A DNA stretch of 41,284 nt, taken from NCBI GenBank assembly GCA_014360155.1, contig JACIYB010000004.1, positions 1 to 41,284 of the forward strand, in the 5' to 3' direction. This DNA comes from Syntrophomonadaceae bacterium (GTDB taxonomy: Bacteria; Bacillota; Syntrophomonadia; Syntrophomonadales; Syntrophomonadaceae). The translations under genes were made by a program, and so were the position numbers. How positions within the stretch are numbered: the stretch's first letter is position 1; the number at the start of each line of letters is the position of its first letter. Shown in pieces: positions 1 to 41,284 of this stretch. The notes beneath the pieces were generated by a model. That model searched no databases. It saw only the letters and a list, made by a program, of their open reading frames with translations, and had not been told where the DNA came from.

Positions 1-396
1 GGCTTTGCTGTCGCCGCGCAGCATCACATCAGGAAATATCGCCTGATATGCTGGATGCTGCGTCAGTTCGCGCGCCTGCCATGAGTTATTGGCCGCAAGT
101 CGCGCCGAGTAGCTTGTATGGATGAATTCTGAATCAGGCGCTTTGCCCAATGCCCACGCCATGAAGTTAATCACGGCCAATTCTGTTTTCGAATAACGCG
201 GCGGGATGTTGATAATCAGGCGCGTTGATTCGCCATTGAACACCCGCATCAGCGCGTCACAGATGATCTTGTGGTGATCCGCTCGAATCCACTGATAGCC
301 GCGACGTTGCTTGAACATCCAGCGGCTAAAGAAGTACAGGTCATCGCTTGCAAGAATCGCCGCCGCTTCGTTCTGCTGCTGGCTGTACTCTTGCAT
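1..396 (-). CDS. terL: Terminase large subunit, N-terminal part (continues across the circular join into 41284..39100)
   Basis: Minus-strand translation from ATG at 396: MQEYSQQQNEAAAILASDDLYFFSRWMFKQRRGYQWIRADHHKII...STRLIINIPPRYSKTELAVINFMAWALGKAPDSEF...; Walker-A-like PPRYSKTE; runs in frame into the 41284..39100 ORF via the 97-bp terminal overlap. Confidence 0.93.
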   Translation of the reverse strand, partial: MQEYSQQQNEAAAILASDDLYFFSRWMFKQRRGYQWIRADHHKIICDALMRVFNGESTRLIINIPPRYSKTELAVINFMAWALGKAPDSEFIHTSYSARLAANNSWQARELTQHPAYQAIFPDVMLRGDSKA

Positions 397-11787: not shown

Positions 11788-12612
11788 GTGATGACCAAAG
11801 AAATTGCTTTAGCCGGAAACAGAGCGCAGTTGGTGAAAGTGCTCCAGTCCAGCCTCTATGTTGGCTCAAAGGACGAATCCGTTGAAATGGTTCTGGACTA
11901 CTGCGAAGCAGCCGGTTTCGACCCAATGCAGAAGCCAGTCCATATCGTGCCAATCAATGCCAAAAACCCAGTCACAGGCAACTACGAGTGGCGCGATGTG
12001 GTAATGCCAGGCATCGGCCTCTATCGAATCCAGGCGGATCGCTCAAAGTCATTGGCTGGCATTTCTGAACCCGTTTTCGGGGAAATGATTCGCCGCGATT
12101 TCCGCGATAAGAACGGGAATGCCGTATCTGTGACCTTCCCTGAATGGTGCAGCGTGACAGTCAAAAAGCTCGTCGGTAATCACATCGTGGAATTCACCGC
12201 GAAGGAATACTGGGAAGAAAACTACGCCTCCGACTCAGGCAAGAGCGATGCCCCCAATTCAATGTGGCGCAAGCGTGTTCGCGGACAAATCGCCAAGTGC
12301 GCTGAGGCCCAAGCTCTTCGCAAGGCATTCCCTGAAGTTGGTAATGCACCGACTGCCGAAGAAATGGAGGGCAAAACACTTGAATCTCAAAGTCAGCCTT
12401 TGCGCCGAATTGAGGCAGAGCCACAGGAATATTCCCAAGAAGAATTCGACCAGAAGGTCGGCCAGTGGGAAGGAATCATCAGATCTGGCAAGCATTCGGC
12501 AAACAGCCTGATCGCCCAGATCGAGAGCAAGGGCAAATTTTTCACCATGGACCAGAAGATGACCCTTGCGTCTTTCGAGGTTCCAGAAGCACAGGTTGAG
12601 GAGGTTGAGTGA
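11788..12612 (+). CDS. bet: Bet/RecT-family single-strand annealing protein
   Basis: EMVLDYCEAAGFDPMQKPVHIVPI...MRDVVMPGIGLYR-like, PEWCSVTVKKL, EFTAKEYWEENYA, MWRKRVRGQIAKCAEAQALRKAFPE. Confidence 0.92.
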   Translation: MMTKEIALAGNRAQLVKVLQSSLYVGSKDESVEMVLDYCEAAGFDPMQKPVHIVPINAKNPVTGNYEWRDVVMPGIGLYRIQADRSKSLAGISEPVFGEMIRRDFRDKNGNAVSVTFPEWCSVTVKKLVGNHIVEFTAKEYWEENYASDSGKSDAPNSMWRKRVRGQIAKCAEAQALRKAFPEVGNAPTAEEMEGKTLESQSQPLRRIEAEPQEYSQEEFDQKVGQWEGIIRSGKHSANSLIAQIESKGKFFTMDQKMTLASFEVPEAQVEEVE

Positions 12613-12839
12613 TGATCAGTCAGGAAGAGTTAATGACCATTCTTGATTACAACGCGCAAACAGGTGTTTTCACTTGGAAAAAACCTCCAAAAGAACACGC
12701 TAGGTTATCCGGGAAAGAAGCGGGGACAAGGTCAACCAAATACATTTTGATCCGCATTAACAACAATAAATACAAGGCTCATCGCCTGGCGTGGCTTGCG
12801 ATTTATGGTGAATTTCCATCGGACGAAATCGACCACATC
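12609..12839 (+). pseudogene. HNH-AP2 homing endonuclease, 5' fragment (interrupted at DEIDHI)
   Basis: ...NNNKYKAHRLAWLAIYGEFPSDEIDHI then abrupt loss of similarity; continuation found at 13595. Confidence 0.85.
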
Positions 12840-12913
12840 GCAGAAGTCAGCGGCGCCGGCACGGCGTCCGCTGGACTGCCGGGTTATGCCGCCGGTGGAA
12901 ACGGAGAACGGAA

Positions 12914-13390
12914 ATGACGGACTACAAGAGCATGTTTGAACAGGCAGTGCGAACACTGGCCGCGATTGATGAAGCACTCGGGATAGGTAACGACGGATGC
13001 GGCGACCCAGACCAGACGCTGGCCGCGATTGCGGAATTGAAGGCTCTCCAAAAAATGGAGGCCCCACAACTGCGCAAGATACACCCGCTAGATTTTCCGA
13101 TTGAGGTTTTTCTAGCCGACCTAACAACACGACCCGCGAACATCATCCGGGCCGAACTAGCAGGGTTCGCCTTATACGCCGGGACAGGAACGTTCGACAT
13201 TGAGCCGCCTTTTACTGTGCGCCACCTGTGCATGTTCAGCCGCAGCGAAATGCGCCGCTGGCCGAACTTCGGGCGAAAGTGCCTAAATGAAGTGGAGGAA
13301 ATGCTGCGGGCTAGAGGCTTGCAGTTATGGGAGAACCACGACGAAAGATCGCTGCGCCTGCTGCGTGAGCATAAGGAGTATTTCAAATGA
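12914..13390 (+). CDS. Protein with RNA polymerase alpha-CTD-like helix-hairpin-helix region
   Basis: MTDYKSMFEQAVRTLAAIDEALGIG... + PPFTVRHLCMFSRSEMRRWPNFGRKCLNEVEEMLRARGLQLWEN resembling alpha-CTD (LTVRSANCL...[26 protein letters not shown]). Confidence 0.65.
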   Translation: MTDYKSMFEQAVRTLAAIDEALGIGNDGCGDPDQTLAAIAELKALQKMEAPQLRKIHPLDFPIEVFLADLTTRPANIIRAELAGFALYAGTGTFDIEPPFTVRHLCMFSRSEMRRWPNFGRKCLNEVEEMLRARGLQLWENHDERSLRLLREHKEYFK

Positions 13391-13593
13391 CGACAGTGAC
13401 CCGAGAAATGATCGGCGCTGCGCATGACGTGATGCTGGCAAAGGGCGACTTCGTTCTGTCCGCCAACCTGTTGGAGCGAGTCTATCTGGCGATGGAGCAG
13501 GCAGCGCCACCGCCACAAACACCGTTTTGCACCTGCCCAACGTGTGAGGCGCTGGCCCGCACGGTGATGATGGATCAGACGGGTGCGGCATAA
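13387..13593 (+). CDS. Hypothetical protein
   Basis: 68-aa ORF, ATGA overlap; ends at the right junction of the cassette. Confidence 0.6.
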   Translation: MTTVTREMIGAAHDVMLAKGDFVLSANLLERVYLAMEQAAPPPQTPFCTCPTCEALARTVMMDQTGAA

Positions 13594-13594
13594 C

Positions 13595-13852
13595 AATGGA
13601 GATAAGCACGACAACAGAATCGCAAATTTGCGGACAGCCACACCCCAGCAAAACCAAGCGAACAAAAGAAGAAACAAAGGGAAATCAACGCCAAAAGGTG
13701 TTCGGCTGCTTCCTAGTGGCCTTTATCAATCCCGAATAACGATAAATGGGAAACAGTTGTCTCTAGGGTCATTCAGAACCCATCAGGACGCAAGCGCAGA
13801 GTACATGAGAGTTGCCAAATCACACTACGGCCAATACGCGAGGGCTGACTAA
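13595..13852 (+). pseudogene. HNH-AP2 homing endonuclease, 3' fragment
   Basis: NGDKHDNRIANLRTATPQQNQANKRRNKGKSTPKGVRLLPSGLYQSRITINGKQLSLGSFRTHQDASAEYMRVAKSHYGQYARAD. Confidence 0.85.
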
Positions 13853-15510
13853 TGAAAATTCACGAACTAATTCAGGGAAGCGCCGAATGGCACGCATTCC
13901 GCGCCCATCATTTCACCGCCAGCGATGCGCCTGCAATGATGGGCAAGTCGAAATACAAGACACGCGCCCAACTGCTTCACGAGAAGGCGACCGGCATCAT
14001 TGAAGAGGTTGATGCGGCAACGCAGCGCCGTTTTGATGATGGCCACCGCTTCGAGGCTTTGGCTCGTCCATTGGCCGAGGCCATCATTGGCGATGACCTT
14101 TATCCGGTTGTCGGCTCAGAGGGCAAATACGGCGCGAGCTTTGACGGACTAACGCTTGGTCATGATGTCAACTTCGAGCACAAGACGCTGAATGCCAATA
14201 TTGCTGAATGTGCAGTTGCCGATGATCTGGACGAGCAATACCACATCCAAGTCCAGCATCAGATGATGGTATCCGGTGCCGAACGCACCCTGTTCATGGC
14301 TTCGCGCTGGGATGAAAACGATCAACTCATCGAGAAGGCCGAATTCTGGATCGAGCGCGATGACAAACTCATCGCAGAAATTGCGGCTGGATGGGTGCAA
14401 TTCGAAATTGATCGGGATAACTACGTTGCGCCGGTAATCGTCGAAAAGCCAAAAGGCGAAGCCGTGCTCGACTTGCCCGCGGTCATGGTCCAGGTTTCCG
14501 GTGATATCGCCATCACCGACAACCTGGATAAGTTCACCACCGCGCTCAAGACGTTTGTCGATGAAAAGCTGATCAAGAGGCCTGAGAGCGATCAGGATTT
14601 CGCGGATCTGGAATCACAGATCAAGACGCTCAAAAAGGCCGAGGAAGCGCTGGATTCCGCCGAAGCCAATATGCTGGCCCAAGTCGATTCCGTAGACACA
14701 GCCAGGCGCATGATTGATCTGGCGCGGAATCTGGCGCGTGATAACAGACTGATGGCCGAGAAGCTCGTTAAATCCGAGAAAGAGCGCATCAAAACCGATC
14801 GAATCATGTTGTCGCGCAATCAGTTCATGGATCACATTTCGGCGCTCAATGCCGAGATCAGTCCGGTGAAGATCGAAGGCGTAACACCTGATTTCAACGG
14901 TGCCGCGAAGAACAAGCGCACCATGTCGAGCCTTTACGATGCGCTGGACACCGAACTCGCCCGCGTCAAGATCGAAGCCGACGCACAAGCAAAGTGCATT
15001 AGAGCAAACCTTAATCACCTATCTAAGCATGCAGAATATCGGTTCCTATTTAACGACCTGGCGACTATTGCGCATAAGCCAAACGATGACTTTGCCGCGC
15101 TGGTATCGCACCGCATAAGCGAACACAAGCAGGCGGAAGAGGTGCGACTTGCCTCCGATCGCCAGCGAATGCAGCAACAAGCCGAAGCCGACGCGCGCGC
15201 CAAGATTGAAGCAGAGCAGCGCGAGGCTGATCGCGAAAAGGCCGAAGCCGGCGCGCGCGCCAAAGTCGAGGCCGAAAAGGTCACTGAGCATCCAGAAGCC
15301 GCCGATATCGCACGCACGATCATCGACAGCGCTCCGGATATCGCCAAGCGTAGCGCCGCACCCGAAAGCGAAAAGCTGCACACAACCACCATCGTGATTG
15401 AGCACTGGTACAGCGACGGCCTGGTGCTTGCCAATCTCAAACAGCTACTCGAAGAGCGCGGTTTCCCCGTGAAGTCGGTTCGCGTGGCTGAGCAGGAGGT
15501 TGAGGCATGA
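13852..15510 (+). CDS. YqaJ-family viral recombinase / exonuclease with long C-terminal extension
   Basis: QGSAEWHAFRAHHFTASDAPAMMGKSKYKTRAQLLHEKATG...SFDGLTLG...FEHKTLN...YHIQVQHQMMVSGAE. Confidence 0.9.
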   Translation: MKIHELIQGSAEWHAFRAHHFTASDAPAMMGKSKYKTRAQLLHEKATGIIEEVDAATQRRFDDGHRFEALARPLAEAIIGDDLYPVVGSEGKYGASFDGLTLGHDVNFEHKTLNANIAECAVADDLDEQYHIQVQHQMMVSGAERTLFMASRWDENDQLIEKAEFWIERDDKLIAEIAAGWVQFEIDRDNYVAPVIVEKPKGEAVLDLPAVMVQVSGDIAITDNLDKFTTALKTFVDEKLIKRPESDQDFADLESQIKTLKKAEEALDSAEANMLAQVDSVDTARRMIDLARNLARDNRLMAEKLVKSEKERIKTDRIMLSRNQFMDHISALNAEISPVKIEGVTPDFNGAAKNKRTMSSLYDALDTELARVKIEADAQAKCIRANLNHLSKHAEYRFLFNDLATIAHKPNDDFAALVSHRISEHKQAEEVRLASDRQRMQQQAEADARAKIEAEQREADREKAEAGARAKVEAEKVTEHPEAADIARTIIDSAPDIAKRSAAPESEKLHTTTIVIEHWYSDGLVLANLKQLLEERGFPVKSVRVAEQEVEA

Positions 15511-30008: not shown

Positions 30009-31502
30009 TTAACGGTTGATATTCACGATCACGTCAACGGTGTGAATCGCGCCCGCCAGTTTCGCGGCAACCTGGAATGTCACGGACTTGCGTGCAGCAC
30101 GGTCGGCTGGGTTCTGGCTTGAGATTGGCGGGGCGTAGACGTAATAGCCTTTTGACAGGAAGTCATTCTGTTTCAATGAGCCGAACCCAGGCTGCGTCCA
30201 TGTTCCCGGTGCAAGCAGCCCGTTTGTAACTCCTTGGGCGCACACAAGCTCGATAGTGGTTGCAATGATGTGATTGCCCGCATCGGTCTGGGGAATCTTG
30301 GTCGGGTTGCTATACAGCAAGTTGTAGACGCTGTTCTGAATGTCGATAGCCAGCCAGTCCGCGCCGAAGATCGTGTCGATGAAGTCGCCGGAAGCCACAA
30401 CGCCGTTCTGAATGATCGCCGTGTTGTTGTCGTAGGCAACAAACACGTTGCAATTGAACCCGGTGAGCGCGGCAAGCTGGTTGCTGTTGATCTGCTCGGC
30501 AACCACGCCAGGCTCTGTCTTGTACATCAGCGTGATGACGGTGTTGTTCGCCGTGTAATCCGTGGTCAGGATGCGCGCCATCAGCGACACAACGGCATAC
30601 TTGGAATTGCTGCTGTACTGGGTCAGCGTTTTCTTGTAGCCGAGCTGCTTTAACTGGTATGCAATGTTCGTGGTGTCAGATGCAACCAGTACAGCCGCTT
30701 CTTGTGTGTTCACGCCGTAAGCGTGCTTGGTGTTCGCGCCTTCGACATAGGCCGCAATCGCCAGATGGTCGGCATCCTGCGCGCCATCAACGAACAGTCC
30801 GTAAAACTGCTGGCCGTATGCCGAATCGAACAGGGCAGCCGCCGAAACTGCGGTTTCAATCGCAATACCGTCGACCACATAAGCACCGGAGCTTGTCGCT
30901 GTGCCGCCGAGCATGGCGCTGATGTCGGTTCCCGTTGCAGGGGCGCTCAGGAAGCTATATTTGCTTGTTGCGCCCGTTGTGCCTGACTTGAACTCAAAGC
31001 GCTCGTATGAGGCATTCCAGACGACTGTCGCGCCAGGCTTCACCACGACGATAGCTGTTTGAATTGTTGACGCCACGCCGTTCAGGTTGGTGACGGCGCT
31101 GAAATTCAAGCCGGTGATTGCACTCGCTGTGCCGTCGATGGTCACATTGAACGCGCCAGCCGTCACCGCCTGCCATGTGGTCATCAACTGCTGCGCGGCG
31201 CTCAACGTCGCGCCGATCAACAGGCCAGCGGTAGCGGTAGCCGCCCATCGGCCAATCAGCAAGTTGCCCGGCTGAGGTGTTTGACCGAACCATTCCGTTG
31301 CAGCCAAATACTCAGGGGCAGTTGTCCCGAAGTCAGTCGCTACGCCGCTCAATGTCGAGTAGGTGCGCATCCGCTCAACCACGTTGATGACATCGGACGA
31401 GCCTAGAACAAGAAGATTGGACAGGCTTTGTGCCTGAGCCGGTGTTGATGCCAGATTAACGGCAACGGACACCAGCGAGGATGAAGGAAGTTGTGCGGCC
31501 AT
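30009..31502 (-). CDS. Contractile tail sheath protein (DUF3383-like)
   Basis: ...VINVVERMRTYSTLSGVATDFGTTAPEYLAATEWFGQTPQPGNLLIGRWA. Confidence 0.87.
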   Translation of the reverse strand: MAAQLPSSSLVSVAVNLASTPAQAQSLSNLLVLGSSDVINVVERMRTYSTLSGVATDFGTTAPEYLAATEWFGQTPQPGNLLIGRWAATATAGLLIGATLSAAQQLMTTWQAVTAGAFNVTIDGTASAITGLNFSAVTNLNGVASTIQTAIVVVKPGATVVWNASYERFEFKSGTTGATSKYSFLSAPATGTDISAMLGGTATSSGAYVVDGIAIETAVSAAALFDSAYGQQFYGLFVDGAQDADHLAIAAYVEGANTKHAYGVNTQEAAVLVASDTTNIAYQLKQLGYKKTLTQYSSNSKYAVVSLMARILTTDYTANNTVITLMYKTEPGVVAEQINSNQLAALTGFNCNVFVAYDNNTAIIQNGVVASGDFIDTIFGADWLAIDIQNSVYNLLYSNPTKIPQTDAGNHIIATTIELVCAQGVTNGLLAPGTWTQPGFGSLKQNDFLSKGYYVYAPPISSQNPADRAARKSVTFQVAAKLAGAIHTVDVIVNINR

Positions 31503-35354: not shown

Positions 35355-36548
35355 TCAGAATTGTTTGGTGCGGGCGGCGCGCATTGCCGCAATGTTGGCC
35401 TTGAGCTGCTCACCCTTGGAGTAAATGGTGTCGGCAGTCTTGGATTTTTCGCTGTCCTTGGTGTTGTTGTGGTGCGCCATCATCGCGGCCACTGCATCGA
35501 ACGTAACGCCAAGCGCCACGCCCTTGAGCGACTTCAAGGAACGACCAGCAAGAACCGAGTTGATGATCTTCGCGCCAGCGTCGGTTGTGGACGCATGAGC
35601 AAGGACGGAGCGCTTTACTGCATCCAATCCGCCTTTTGCATCATTGGTTGCTTTGGGCTTGAATGCAGGGGCGATGATCGCGGCCTTGGACATAACGGCC
35701 TTAGCTGAGTCGCCGGTGTATTTCTCTACACCTTCCTCATCTTCGGTGGCGTCTTCATCTTCATCAGCTGTGGCGCTGTCTTCGTCATCGTCGCCGTTCT
35801 CGTCCGAGTCCTTGGTGGCGCTCAGTGCAGCGATAGCGGCCTCGATGCGTGAAAGGCGCTCTTCCATCGGATCGGCGTCGTCCTTGGTTTCGGGCTTATC
35901 TTCGGCGGTTGACATGTGAATATGCACATCGCCGCCATCTTCCTCTGGGATGGAGTCGAGCGTGGCCTTGATCGTGGCCTCGTCTTTGGTTCGGAATGCC
36001 GCCATGAGGCGGTCTTTGATGCTTGGCTTCATAGCGTCATGATCCTTAATAGAACAAGTGGAGCCGCACCGGCCTTTCGGCACGAGCGCGACGTGGTTAC
36101 CGACGATGCCCACTTGTCGGGCAAAGCCTGGTTGGGTTTGCTCGTAGTCGGCCTCGTAGCCGCACGAGACTTCACGCAAGCCGTTCTGCACGTCATTGAT
36201 CGCGTCGGCCTGCATGATTAAAAGATCGGCGACAAGGAGATTCCCCTCTTGCCGCACGTTGCTTACGGTGCCTACAGACACCTCTTGCCAGTTCTCAGGG
36301 CTTACGAGGTCATCCGGATGCAGATTGGTTACGGGCTTGCCTTCGAATGAAGCGATTGCCTCCGGCTTGAATACTTCGTCTGCATCGCGTGATACATTGA
36401 TGAAGCCGTTCTCGTCGGGGTCTGCGGGTATCTCGCCAGCGCCATAAAGCAACACACCAGTGCGCGCGATTGGCACATCCCGGCACAACAAAAAGCCCTC
36501 GGGTGTGAGGGCTTGTTTATCACCGATTTTTTCAGTGGTATGAATCAT
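35355..36548 (-). CDS. DUF2213-like prohead protease/scaffold protein
   Basis: TPEGFLLCRDVPIARTGVLLYGAGEIPADPDENGFINVSRDADEVFKPEAIASFEGKPVTNLHPDDLVSPENW; acidic C-terminal scaffold-like region. Confidence 0.82.
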   Translation of the reverse strand: MIHTTEKIGDKQALTPEGFLLCRDVPIARTGVLLYGAGEIPADPDENGFINVSRDADEVFKPEAIASFEGKPVTNLHPDDLVSPENWQEVSVGTVSNVRQEGNLLVADLLIMQADAINDVQNGLREVSCGYEADYEQTQPGFARQVGIVGNHVALVPKGRCGSTCSIKDHDAMKPSIKDRLMAAFRTKDEATIKATLDSIPEEDGGDVHIHMSTAEDKPETKDDADPMEERLSRIEAAIAALSATKDSDENGDDDEDSATADEDEDATEDEEGVEKYTGDSAKAVMSKAAIIAPAFKPKATNDAKGGLDAVKRSVLAHASTTDAGAKIINSVLAGRSLKSLKGVALGVTFDAVAAMMAHHNNTKDSEKSKTADTIYSKGEQLKANIAAMRAARTKQF

Positions 36549-36560
36549 TGGAGTACCGAA

Positions 36561-36983
36561 ATGAAAGCTTTAATCTTGGTTCTTTTGTCGCTGTTCTCGT
36601 TGCCGGTCATGGCTACGCCAGTCTGGTACATGCCCACAACGCAGGTTGTGGATGGCAAGCTGCTCTACATCGTCCTGACCGATACTCACTGGAAGGGATG
36701 CCCGTCCAGCATGATGAACGGCAGGCTTGTCGTCCGTCATGCGCTCGAAAAGGGCTACAACCGATATCCGATCTGCTGGCGTGATGACGGCGGCGACGGC
36801 GTAACTGTATATTTCCCGCACACGGGACAATGGTTCTATAACCAGAGCGTTGGCCTCGTTGATACGCCGGAAGCCCATGCCGCTTATCAGCGCATGATGG
36901 ATAAAGACAGAGCCGAAGCCAGACGCAAAGGCGAAGCGCTCAACCGCGCAATGGAAAACGAGTTTACAAATCGGGGACAATGA
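36561..36983 (+). CDS. Secreted protein, counter-oriented moron in head operon
   Basis: MKALILVLLSLFSLPVMA signal peptide; only plus-strand gene with clear coding character within the late head block apart from the nested HNH. Confidence 0.7.
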   Translation: MKALILVLLSLFSLPVMATPVWYMPTTQVVDGKLLYIVLTDTHWKGCPSSMMNGRLVVRHALEKGYNRYPICWRDDGGDGVTVYFPHTGQWFYNQSVGLVDTPEAHAAYQRMMDKDRAEARRKGEALNRAMENEFTNRGQ

Positions 36984-37695
36984 TCTCCATCGAGCACCGG
37001 CAGTTATAAATCTGTCCGGGGTGCGTCGTCGTCCCGTCGCTCAATGTCGGCGCGTGATCCAATTCGCAGACGACGCCTTCCATTTGGGCATGCGAGTGTC
37101 GAACGCTCTTGTCCCTCGATGTACGCCAAATGTAATGAGTCGCTCCAATCGCCTGCGCTCTGGTTTGCGTCAGCACCGATCCCGCGCGCGCAACCTCGGT
37201 TCGAGCTATCAGCGTGGCGCGTGATCTTGTCACCTCGCCAGTGCGATAAATCTCTTTCATCACTTCATCAGGCCGCTTGCCGCCGGTTCTGGCTTCGATT
37301 GCCAGTGCCTGCGCTCGAATACCGGCATCACGCGGCAGGCTGGTGATGTAATGCACCTGACGCTCTACAAAGTCGCGCATCTGCTCACCTGCTGGCGTTG
37401 CCTTGATGACGTCTTTGAGATTGCGCCCAATATCGACTGAGCGCTTGTTCCACGTCGCGTAGTCTTGAATGTCGATCTTCTCTGCCACGTTCTTGGCCGT
37501 TCGAATCGCCCATGGCTTGAGAATGTCAGTGTACGAATCAAGAGCCCGTTGCATTGCCTCAAGTCCGCTGATCGTCAACGGATCGTGGCTTTTAACGATC
37601 CGTTGAATTTCCGTCCCGAGTTGCCGCAACTGTCTGGCGTACTTCTCTGCGATCCAGTCCGACTTGTCGAATGGGTTGTGTCTATACTTCGCCAT
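36964..37695 (-). CDS. Mu gpF-like minor head protein
   Basis: TLIARTEVARAGSVLTQTRAQAIGATHYIWRTSRDKSVRHSHAQMEGVVCELDHAPTLSDGTTTHPGQIYNCRCSMEIIVPDL. Confidence 0.85.
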   Translation of the reverse strand: MAKYRHNPFDKSDWIAEKYARQLRQLGTEIQRIVKSHDPLTISGLEAMQRALDSYTDILKPWAIRTAKNVAEKIDIQDYATWNKRSVDIGRNLKDVIKATPAGEQMRDFVERQVHYITSLPRDAGIRAQALAIEARTGGKRPDEVMKEIYRTGEVTRSRATLIARTEVARAGSVLTQTRAQAIGATHYIWRTSRDKSVRHSHAQMEGVVCELDHAPTLSDGTTTHPGQIYNCRCSMEIIVPDL

Positions 37696-39118
37696 TCATG
37701 CCACCAAGCTCTTTTGGCGTGATGAATTGCTCGGGCTTGTCAGCTTCCGATTCTGCCTTCGGCGGCATATCATCGGCATCCTTAATGTCTTCATCGGTGA
37801 TGTTCGTAAACACACCGGTCAATGCGGATGACTGACGCAATTCTTTGAGCGCCGTTGCTTGACTGATGATTGACGATTCGAACGCCTTGATGACGGTATC
37901 GGCATCGACACCGGCAATATCTGACTTCTCTTTCTCGGTGACCAGCCATAGCGGGTTGAACGAGAACCGAAAGCCCTTGGGCAACTTGTCGCCGAGCACA
38001 GAGCGCGCGGTGATATCAAGAATCTTCGTCAGTGGTGCGCGCAGCTGGATGTTCTGCTGCTTTGCCAATCCATCGTAGTAGGTGCGCAAATCAGACTCAC
38101 CCGACGAATTCAGGCCGCCAGGTGACTGGCCGAACAACCGGATCAACGGGATTTGCAAAGCGCCGCTGATCTGCTGGCCGAATTGCAGCATCATGTCGCT
38201 CAATCCGCTGAACGAGTATTGCTGCGTGTCGAACTCATCCGTCGAGTCAAGCAGCGTGATTCCCTCGTTCGATTGGGTCTTGCGCATATTATCGATCTGC
38301 GCCTGCACGCCAGCCATAGCAGGCCCGCCGGCTGCGATAATGTCACGCAATCCTTCGATCTTCATCACGCGCAGATGCGCCTTGTACACCAACTGAGCCG
38401 CGCCCGTGCTGGTGCTGTCATAGCTCACCAACCGGTCATAAATGCGCTCTACAACCGATTCGCCCCACATGTTCTCGGTCTGCGCCTGGTTGAATGGCAG
38501 ATCAATACCTGTCATGCGGATGACGCGAGAGTAGTGAATCTTCGGGTACTTGCTTACGGATACCGGCGCTTGAACGACTGAGTAGAACTTCGGCAATCCG
38601 TAGTAATGCCCAAGCTCGTCCACCACGTCAGACACGGACGGCTGAACCATCCAGCGATCCAGCGGCATGATGCCCTTGAACTGGCCTTCGCCGATGGTGT
38701 CAATGTCCAGCGGCGTAGACGGGTCTTGCCCGTCGATCATGATGTAACCGAGCGCGCCGCCATAAAGCCGCGACCATTTGAGAACCTTGGTCAGCGATTG
38801 CCAAATCTGCAAATCTTCAATCGCGGCATGGAGCGCATCGTTTTCATCTGGCGTGAGCGTCGAGTTGAAATCAATGCCAGCGCGCGTCATGTCCTCTGCC
38901 GGGGCGTCGACAGCCATGCCGACCAACCATGAGCCGCGATACATCCATTCCAACTGGATGCGCATTCGAGTGATTGGGTTAAACCCATACGTCGAATTGC
39001 TGCTCTGATTGCTCGCGCCAATGCCCAATCCGGCTTGGAAATTCTGGAAGCTATCGAATGTAGCGTTTCCCTTTGCCTTGATGGTTGATCGGCGCTTCGT
39101 CATGCTAATTTTGCCCAT
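37682..39118 (-). CDS. Portal protein (DUF1073-like)
   Basis: RIQLEWMYRGSWLVGMAVDAPAEDMTRAGIDFNS...GRLFGQSPGGLNSSGESDLRTYYDGLAKQQN-type region. Confidence 0.85.
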   Translation of the reverse strand: MGKISMTKRRSTIKAKGNATFDSFQNFQAGLGIGASNQSSNSTYGFNPITRMRIQLEWMYRGSWLVGMAVDAPAEDMTRAGIDFNSTLTPDENDALHAAIEDLQIWQSLTKVLKWSRLYGGALGYIMIDGQDPSTPLDIDTIGEGQFKGIMPLDRWMVQPSVSDVVDELGHYYGLPKFYSVVQAPVSVSKYPKIHYSRVIRMTGIDLPFNQAQTENMWGESVVERIYDRLVSYDSTSTGAAQLVYKAHLRVMKIEGLRDIIAAGGPAMAGVQAQIDNMRKTQSNEGITLLDSTDEFDTQQYSFSGLSDMMLQFGQQISGALQIPLIRLFGQSPGGLNSSGESDLRTYYDGLAKQQNIQLRAPLTKILDITARSVLGDKLPKGFRFSFNPLWLVTEKEKSDIAGVDADTVIKAFESSIISQATALKELRQSSALTGVFTNITDEDIKDADDMPPKAESEADKPEQFITPKELGGMNGEV

Positions 39119-41284
39119 GTTCCTAGATTTGCGCCGCCGATAAGTTCACTGAACGCACGGCTTAATGCGTCGATCTGGTCATCGAATGAACCGTTTGGGA
39201 ACATCCGCATTTCGTTGATAAGTTGGTCGTTCCAGTCGCCGCGCAGAATCATTACGTTGCCTGCGTTGATCTGGGCGGCCAGTGGTTCGGCGCGTGTCAC
39301 CTTGTCGCCGGACTCCGGCGATGACCGCACACGAAACCCAGACAACTGCCGAGTCAGATACAAAACCTGAGTCTTGCCCGCCTGACCTGGATCTTGAGGA
39401 ATGCTCAACGGACATAAAGCGCCATCACGTCGAGCGGTATTCAGAATCGCCGCATCACGTTCATCAGGGCCGCATCGGACCCGCACCATGTCAGCGATGA
39501 CGAAGCGGCCATCTGGCAACTTCCCGATCTTGCCGCCCGCTGTCCAGTCGCCGTCAGTGGTTGACGCCAAATCCCAGCCACGCATCCAGGTGATTTGTCC
39601 GGCTGGTAGTGCGTCGATCGTCACCAGGTTGTCTGGCTTGATTACGCCGCCTTCTGCTGGGGCTGGTCGCTGCTGATATTGCCCCGCGAATGTGTACGGG
39701 CTTGCATCCTGCATCCGGCGTAAATCGTCGGCTGTGTGCTTATCAGGCCACAGCGCAGAGCCATCGTCGCGCAATGCCGACAAGCAGATATGATCCCACT
39801 GCTCGCCGTTTCCACCCTTGAGCAGCCATCCGCTCAGGTCATCCTCGTGCAATCGCTGCATGATCAGGATGATCGGGGTTTCCGGTGAGTTCTTCCGGCT
39901 TTCGAGCGTGTTCTGGAACCACTCGATGACGTTTGCTCGCATCACATCGGATCGGGCTTCGTCAGCCTTGTGTGGGTCATCGATCAGGATGCAATTTTTG
40001 ACCACCAAACCGGATTCGATGGTAAAATTATGATAATCATCAACGGTCAAGCAAAAGGTCACATCATCATGCCGAACGCGCTCAACGAGAACTGGCTTCC
40101 GGTACCCGGATATGAAGGGTTCTATTCCGTCAGCGACCACGGAAGGGTCAGAAGCGAAAGCCGGATGATCACCAATGCCGGAAGTGGCTATTCTTATACG
40201 CAGCCCGGAAAGCTGCTCAAGCCGAGCCGGGAAGGTAGCGGGCACGTCCGCGTCAGCCTGTCCAGAAAATCCAAGATCAGCTATACGTCTGTTCACTCGC
40301 TTGTGATGCTGGCCTTCGTTGGCGAGCGCCCGGAAGGTGCGGACATTTGCCACACCGACGGAAACCCCGCGAACAACAGACTCACCAACCTGCGATACGA
40401 CTCGCGCAGATCTAACATCATCGACAGCCAGCGGCATGGCACTTTCAGCGAGGCCGAAATCCACCCCGCCGCCATGCTCACCAACGACCAGGCATTGGCC
40501 ATCTACAACACTGTCGGCATAGCTGCCAACGATCTGGCTGCGCAATATGGCGTCTGTGCCGCCGTCATTAATCAAATCTGGCGCGGCGACACATGGAAGT
40601 CCGTCACAGGCGGAAAGCCCGTGATCGGAAGTCGAGGCGAGAAGACCTACCTCAGAACCATCTTGACCAAAAGCCATGCTGACTTCGCCATCGCCAACAG
40701 GGCCAACCGAACAGGACGGAAGGACGGGCGCGGGATCAAGCCCACCGCTTCCGCGCTTGGGGTTGATGCCGACGTGATTAAGACCCTGTATGCCGCCATT
40801 GACGCGGGGAAGGCAATCATCTACGCCGAGTGAATCAGCGCGCACCCATCCTCGGTTTGTCCAGAACCTGTGGTCTTGGGTGCACTCGACAATCGCGCCA
40901 TCGTCAAACGTCACGCGCCAAATATCGTTTGGCGGATTCTCGTGCCACGCAACCACCGGACGCAGAGCCATCCCGCCAGCGTAATCAAATGCCCAGACAT
41001 TGATTGTCATGCGCTCGCGCACGATGCGATCAATCGGTATCAGACCACTTTCTGTCCAAACTCGCGTTCCAACCGGAAAGCACCCGCCAAAGCCATCACG
41101 ATGCTTGCCAGCGCCATAGCCGGTAATCGTGCCACCAGAGCCAGCGGCATAAACCACGCCACCGGCTGATGTTTTCCATTCATCCTTGGCTTTGCTGTCG
41201 CCGCGCAGCATCACATCAGGAAATATCGCCTGATATGCTGGATGCTGCGACAGTTCGCGCGCCTGCCATGAGTTATTGGCCGCA
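39100..41284 (-). CDS. terL: Terminase large subunit, C-terminal part containing an intein (5' part at 396..1 through the circular join)
   Basis: ...TGYGAGKHRDGFGG|intein|CILIDDPHKADEARSDVMRANVIEWFQNTLESRKNSPETPIILIMQRLHEDDLSGWLL...; nuclease domain ...GWDLASTTDGDWTAGGKIG... Confidence 0.93.
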   Translation of the reverse strand, partial: AANNSWQARELSQHPAYQAIFPDVMLRGDSKAKDEWKTSAGGVVYAAGSGGTITGYGAGKHRDGFGGCFPVGTRVWTESGLIPIDRIVRERMTINVWAFDYAGGMALRPVVAWHENPPNDIWRVTFDDGAIVECTQDHRFWTNRGWVRADSLGVDDCLPRVNGGIQGLNHVGINPKRGSGGLDPAPVLPSCSVGPVGDGEVSMAFGQDGSEVGLLASTSDHGLSACDGLPCVAAPDLINDGGTDAILRSQIVGSYADSVVDGQCLVVGEHGGGVDFGLAESAMPLAVDDVRSARVVSQVGESVVRGVSVGVANVRTFRALANEGQHHKRVNRRIADLGFSGQADADVPATFPARLEQLSGLRIRIATSGIGDHPAFASDPSVVADGIEPFISGYRKPVLVERVRHDDVTFCLTVDDYHNFTIESGLVVKNCILIDDPHKADEARSDVMRANVIEWFQNTLESRKNSPETPIILIMQRLHEDDLSGWLLKGGNGEQWDHICLSALRDDGSALWPDKHTADDLRRMQDASPYTFAGQYQQRPAPAEGGVIKPDNLVTIDALPAGQITWMRGWDLASTTDGDWTAGGKIGKLPDGRFVIADMVRVRCGPDERDAAILNTARRDGALCPLSIPQDPGQAGKTQVLYLTRQLSGFRVRSSPESGDKVTRAEPLAAQINAGNVMILRGDWNDQLINEMRMFPNGSFDDQIDALSRAFSELIGGANLGTWAKLA
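39994..41082 (-). other. Intein (363 aa) inserted directly before the Walker B motif of TerL
   Basis: N-terminal CFPVGTRVWTESGLIPIDRI; block B-like DGAIVECTQDHRFWTNRGWVRADSL; C-terminal VRHDDVTFCLTVDDYHNFTIESGLVVKN followed by +1 Cys. Confidence 0.9.
40069..40833 (+). CDS. NUMOD4/HNH homing endonuclease encoded antisense inside the terL intein
   Basis: MPNALNENWLPVPGYEGFYSVSDHGRVRSESRMI (NUMOD4) ... SVHSLVMLAFVGERPEGADICHTDGNPANNRLTNLRYDSRRSNIIDSQRHG (HNH) ... HTH-like C-terminus; AAAAGG 10 nt before ATG. Confidence 0.92.
   Translation: MPNALNENWLPVPGYEGFYSVSDHGRVRSESRMITNAGSGYSYTQPGKLLKPSREGSGHVRVSLSRKSKISYTSVHSLVMLAFVGERPEGADICHTDGNPANNRLTNLRYDSRRSNIIDSQRHGTFSEAEIHPAAMLTNDQALAIYNTVGIAANDLAAQYGVCAAVINQIWRGDTWKSVTGGKPVIGSRGEKTYLRTILTKSHADFAIANRANRTGRKDGRGIKPTASALGVDADVIKTLYAAIDAGKAIIYAE
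41188..41284. repeat. 97-bp terminal redundancy identical to 1-97 except one base (41250 A vs 63 T)
   Basis: Direct comparison of both ends. Confidence 0.97.

Follow-up and report, generated by a model that had tools for sequence, protein, structure and literature searches.

A phage terL intein with a putative homing endonuclease gene nested on the opposite strand in codon register

On the usual view, inteins acquire their endonucleases as domains inserted into a shared reading frame. The gene for the endonuclease I-HmuI lies within a group I intron of a Bacillus phage. In the fractured genes reportedly described by Dassa et al. in 2009, a split intein is accompanied by a separate endonuclease ORF. 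Nuclear group I introns of Didymium carry antisense homing endonuclease genes (HEGs) (PMC9548176). For mycobacteriophage TerL inteins, Kelley et al. 2016 (PMC5050341) give a location in the ATPase domain near functional motifs, and describe them as splicing-competent, some with endonuclease activity.

The DNA analysed in the current study (the window) is a stretch of 41,284 nucleotides. The best explanation of its terL region, with a probability of about 0.88, is a lineage of mobile inteins that splice in cis, and for which a separate antisense NUMOD4-HNH gene, in codon register with the intein, would supply the homing endonuclease. The relevant features are as follows.

1-396, minus: terL codons 1-132, N-terminal part with Walker A PPRYSKTE (match to the TerL of locus L083 at 7-393; contig-end overlap and matching translation)
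41083-41283, minus: terL N-extein to ...KHRDGFGG (translation; alignment with TerL homologues)
40804-41082, minus: intein N-terminal splicing region, residues 1-93, with Cys1 and block B CTQDH (TIGR01445; AlphaFold2; Foldseek to inteins)
40105-40803, minus: intein linker, residues 94-326, its frame held open by the antisense HNH gene, predicted to be disordered (low pLDDT; no Pfam domain; identity below that of HNH)
39994-40104, minus: intein C-terminal splicing region, residues 327-363, TFCLTVDDYHNF ... VVKN (TIGR01443; AlphaFold2; conserved in 13 loci)
39103-39993, minus: terL C-extein from CILIDDPHK, with Walker B and the nuclease domain (Terminase_6C, TIGR01630); stop codon at 39100-39102
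40069-40833, plus: nested antisense homing endonuclease gene (putative), 254 aa (Pfam; I-HmuI, 1u3e; AlphaFold2; 22 further nested homologues)
~40087-40263, plus: NUMOD4 of the HNH gene (Pfam, E 8e-12)
~40291-40416, plus: HNH_3 of the HNH gene (Pfam, E 2e-9), with a C-terminal helical region beyond
40053-40059, plus: AAAAGGT, putative Shine-Dalgarno sequence of the HNH gene, antisense of the intein block F codons T-F
11788-15507, plus: RecT-like annealing and RecE-like exonuclease genes
30012-31502 and 35358-39118, minus: tail sheath, head protease, head morphogenesis and portal genes

The minus frame at 39100-41283 is open throughout (727 aa) and was identified as TerL by psiM2_ORF9/TerL TIGR01630 (92 bits, E 4.5e-26) and Terminase_6C (E 1.4e-16). 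A preliminary description, made from the letters alone, had placed an intein with N- and C-terminal splicing segments in this frame, and both NCBIfam intein profiles scored above their cut-offs (intein_Nterm TIGR01445, 34 bits against 24.5; intein_Cterm TIGR01443, 19.8 bits against 15.6). The intein spans 41082-39994 on the minus strand (363 aa), with the junctions GFGG/CFPVGT and VVKN/CILIDD, where the slash marks the border between extein and intein. The terL gene is not truncated, as its missing first 132 codons lie at the opposite end of the contig. The two contig ends share 97 bp (window 1-97 and 41188-41284) that are 99% identical. Joined across this overlap, the gene encodes a precursor of 827 aa, from which splicing would give a TerL of 464 aa, the length predicted in the preliminary description. 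The window is probably a complete phage genome, circularly permuted or terminally redundant, with terL spanning the junction, and the phage is contractile-tailed.

On the plus strand, profile searches recovered the complete NUMOD4 and HNH_3 protein that had been proposed there, so that the intein and endonuclease profiles suggested as a check on the two translations were all matched. The HNH stop codon (40831-40833) and the ATG, which faces intein residue His338, fall at the edges of the splicing blocks as first described, and the exact codon register of the HNH and intein frames was likewise confirmed in the window. Similarity to I-HmuI (1u3e) was found both with sequence profiles (E 1.4e-20) and with Foldseek (E 2.5e-8). 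His95 (catalytic) and Asn107 are invariant in 23/23 nested HNH proteins. The residue preceding His95 is Arg in 16 and Cys in 7 of the 23, where I-HmuI has Asp, and Arg or Cys is also found there in most free-standing HNH homologues. Based on its domains and on the catalytic His and downstream Asn, the protein is classed as a NUMOD4-HNH homing endonuclease without the I-HmuI-type Asp, with putative cleavage activity.

Structure prediction gave a different picture for each part of the intein. AlphaFold2 modelled a HINT fold from residues 1-93 together with 327-363 (pLDDT mostly 66-88 over blocks of ten residues), and gave residues 94-326 a pLDDT of ~22. A Foldseek search with the intein model returned inteins as the top matches (E 1.7e-7), including the Mtu RecA and Npu DnaE inteins. 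The HNH protein was predicted with a mean pLDDT of 77, the NUMOD4/HNH part being mostly at 84-95. With respect to class 1 inteins, Cys1 is present in every aligned row, block B Thr68 and His71 are invariant, and the C-terminal Asn is followed by Cys in 25/25 inteins examined. The penultimate His of block G is absent, and Lys, Ser, Ala or Gln is found instead; phage inteins that splice without this His are known natural exceptions (PMC5050341). In searches with Pfam and NCBIfam profiles, the sense frame of the intein matched no endonuclease domain, and in this respect the intein departs from canonical large inteins.

Homologues were searched using TerL, the HNH protein, and the intein N-half and C-half separately as queries. 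The preliminary description had asked whether other phages carry an antisense HNH gene at the same place in their terL inteins, and the same nested arrangement was found in 23 distinct, mostly metagenomic, TerL inteins (the window, Escherichia phage BUCT618, one MAG contig and 20 IMG/VR contigs). In the complete genome of BUCT618 (OM735461), terL is annotated as one gene and the HNH gene is unannotated; the MAG contig (L167) is labelled Deltaproteobacteria. At all 23 loci the intein interrupts terL and its HNH gene runs antisense in codon register, and HNH identity to the window protein goes down to ~30%. In the loci measured, the HNH gene starts 22-30 residues ahead of the intein C-terminus and stops at about intein residue 74-88. 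The putative HNH ribosome-binding site, which is the reverse complement of block F codons, is found at the same place as AGG in 19/23 loci and AAAG in 3/23, and in the remaining 1/23 as GAGGAGG slightly nearer. No sigma-70-like or consensus promoter was found on either strand of the region, and a terminator scan was also empty, so that early expression of HNH and late expression of terL, as suggested in the preliminary description, gained no support from promoter sequences.

Among the scans with the intein halves, which were blind to HNH, no strong member of the intein family was found without an antisense HNH gene or its remnant, except L254. This sequence (L254:3009-3820), which lies near a contig end, almost duplicates the TerL intein of L227 and has a frameshifted N-half; the frameshift reflects either decay or a sequencing error. 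Beyond these loci, BUCT618 terL had no match in E. coli genomes (near mode), the intein had none in plasmids, and the intein N-half, searched in 399 genomes of the phylum, matched at E<=1e-15 only the window's own genome. Long antisense ORFs opposite the HNH genes of L153, L147, L106 and L155 had no intein or TerL match and were set aside as ordinary antisense frames. HNH matches under 'RecB' (Lesedi, Aurca01) or beside 'recombinase' (SAC) were sense genes rather than antisense inteins.

The intein is an in-frame insertion, as 57 intein-less TerLs are continuous across the site. Three neighbouring Walker B insertion positions (GG/C-III-DD, xx/C-[IV]-DD and xx/C-DD) were seen among the 23 loci and, together with incongruent trees, characterize it as a mobile element. 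In the trees, L006 and L092 group with the window clade by TerL (90/92) and with the BUCT618 clade by HNH (100/99). L167 joins the window clade by intein (100/99) and by HNH (100/100), and its TerL lies elsewhere. These topologies indicate that intein and HNH move as a unit between unrelated TerLs. The intein-less locus L005 is 82% identical in DNA, and 55/56 bases match around the site (counted from the alignment). The position of the +1 Cys is mostly Ala in intein-less TerLs (L005-L082, Walker B), and in L005 it is Cys, which may mean that the intein targets an allele found in a minority of TerLs.

Remnants of the HNH gene persist in antisense in the mini-inteins L007 and L223. In the antisense frame of L007, the HNH start MPNEFNARWLSVPGYEGAY is joined directly to the HNH end AATDTGKPIIYAE, and this in-frame fusion indicates that the mini-intein arose by in-frame internal deletion. 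In the 13 loci aligned, the codon of an invariant His in the intein C-half (CAT) reads on the other strand as the HNH start codon (ATG). The mini-inteins keep that His, and this residue is an imprint of the overlapping HNH gene.

These data bear on the alternative that survives best, in which HNH would be a mobile gene of the free-standing type that inserted antisense into a mini-intein and is carried along without driving homing, its opposite frame being open only because TerL is essential. The HNH family is indeed mostly free-standing in phages (1345 records match), and mini-inteins without HNH exist. However, L007 keeps the HNH start and end, and is a deletion derivative rather than an ancestor. 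Moreover, no full intein of the family is without HNH or a remnant, the two ends of the HNH gene reach into the splicing blocks at a constant position, and intein and HNH travel together between unrelated TerLs. This alternative is considered unlikely.

An open intein frame requires an HNH gene free of TTA, CTA and TCA. Their absence from the window gene had been pointed out in the preliminary description, and was borne out in its 38 Leu and Ser codons (0 TTA/CTA/TCA) and over all loci. The other two antisense frames in the window hold 9 and 19 stops (3-28 stops each in the first 12 loci). For the window gene alone, this avoidance is only moderately unlikely (P ~0.001 to 0.016 under two nulls). 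In the 23 nested HNH genes, the three codons were found in 0/718 Leu and Ser codons, versus 292/1690 in 81 free-standing homologues. The expected number was 134.9 based on GC-matched free-standing homologues (log10P -67) and 136.5 based on the TerL extein codon usage of the same loci (log10P -71), where both values treat codons as independent although the loci are related. The check that had been suggested, whether the antisense frame is kept open more than codon usage predicts, thus came out clearly, with 0 observed versus ~135 expected, and a chance open frame was ruled out on these counts. The nine AT-rich loci alone would be expected to hold 82 such codons and held none, Leu being mostly CTT there.

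The substitution pattern differs between the two frames. Codon differences among related HNH genes at positions 1/2/3 numbered 1831/1328/3494, and in the window clade HNH identity was 63-73% versus 28-44% for the linker. The third-position excess and the higher identity of HNH indicate that HNH is under purifying selection, and that the linker is mostly a passive mirror kept open. Linker identity was slightly above expectation in some pairs (z up to 3.4), and more so in the very close pair L108/L201; this slight excess may come from recent common descent. As judged from sequence, the two genes are an overlapping dual-coding pair in which both frames are selected, HNH as seen in its substitutions and the linker as seen in the absence of stops.

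Under a second alternative, the conserved domain would be the linker encoded on the minus strand, and the HNH frame opposite it would be an antisense ORF that is decayed or open by chance. In GC-rich genes, the antisense frame in register does often lack stops by chance, and 5/10 free-standing HNHs at GC >65% have none of the three codons. However, both frames are also kept in AT-rich loci, the linker has no domain and is predicted to be disordered, the HNH protein matches Pfam and I-HmuI, and the substitutions favour the HNH frame. A decayed HNH gene was ruled out by this pattern and by the confident AlphaFold2 fold, leaving the alternative with hardly any probability. An assembly chimera or an ascertainment artefact, which might be suspected since the window is one MAG contig and the first loci were found via their open antisense frame, is just as implausible given that the 23 distinct loci come from independent assemblies, one of them the complete genome of BUCT618, and given that the intein-half scans, which required no open frame, yielded one broken copy only (L254, at a contig end).

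The intein with an antisense endonuclease gene is therefore retained as the preferred reading. The distinct architecture with an independently encoded endonuclease that had been proposed initially is supported by the anatomy of the locus and its conservation in 23 loci, zero antisense stops, purifying selection on HNH, a disordered and mostly unconserved linker, lateral co-movement of intein and HNH, and in-frame loss leading to deletion-derived mini-inteins. Weighing against it are the lack of a sigma-70-like promoter, the Arg or Cys before the catalytic His, the missing penultimate His and the metagenomic origin of most loci. Of the findings named at the outset as speaking against it, none was encountered: the HNH gene is not decayed, there is no conserved minus-strand domain, and there is no chimera.

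The mechanism that we infer for this intein comprises splicing, HNH expression, cleavage and homing. TerL would be translated as a single continuous 827-aa precursor, in which the HINT halves fold and the disordered linker, ~230 aa that correspond to the HNH gene read in antisense, is looped out, as endonuclease domains are in ordinary inteins. Cis-splicing would then yield the 464-aa TerL. The HNH protein would be translated from its own message and start, with the ribosome-binding site inside block F, and would cut intein-less terL at Walker B, after which repair would copy intein and HNH together. A more tentative suggestion, possible but doubtful, is that this is an old intein lineage in which dual coding uncoupled homing from splicing. 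HNH would be independently expressed from the opposite strand, with its start and ribosome-binding site embedded in the C-terminal splicing region, which is conserved. The HNH transcript, being antisense to terL, would in addition time or limit TerL production.

A published description of an antisense endonuclease gene within an intact intein was not found in the open-licence literature, and the architecture seems undescribed. It would represent another way to combine homing and splicing, in which an antisense endonuclease gene of free-standing type is acquired and its reverse reading is tolerated as a disordered linker. It is also one of the clearer fully embedded overlapping genes whose reality can be tested statistically. 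The loci L007 and L223 are natural mini-inteins with HNH remnants, and in BUCT618, an Escherichia phage isolate whose genome is complete, splicing, expression and homing are open to direct experiment.

Compared with canonical inteins, the window family shares the HINT halves and the position of the endonuclease between blocks B and F, and differs in that the canonical endonuclease is part of the same polypeptide. Such sense arrangements were found in a terminase gpA (L285, LAGLIDADG), in RecD2 (L229, LAGLIDADG) and in a portal-like protein whose intein has a sense HNH_3 in the same polypeptide (L256:1869-5090), in contrast to the antisense family. Split-intein fractured genes share with the window an endonuclease that is a separate gene between the intein halves, but there the host gene is in two pieces and the ORF is in sense (L228), whereas the window has a continuous precursor and an antisense gene. 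L228:1092-3921 encodes a SNF2-like helicase with a split intein, consisting of an N-half, a separate sense endonuclease-like ORF and a C-half.

The mycobacteriophage inteins are similar to the window family in lying in the TerL ATPase domain and in being, in some cases, class 1 inteins without the penultimate His, but no antisense nested gene is described in the available part of that study (PMC5050341). I-HmuI (1u3e) and the window HNH protein are both NUMOD4/HNH enzymes by domain content, and the Asp before the catalytic His of I-HmuI is replaced by Cys or Arg in the nested proteins. The antisense HEGs of Didymium (PMC9548176) likewise lie opposite the strand of a self-splicing element. However, the Didymium element is an RNA intron, and its antisense stretch therefore needs no open sense frame, whereas the intein stretch in the window would be read into protein from both strands, in a single codon register. 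The architecture thus parallels the antisense HEGs of group I introns under a far stricter constraint.
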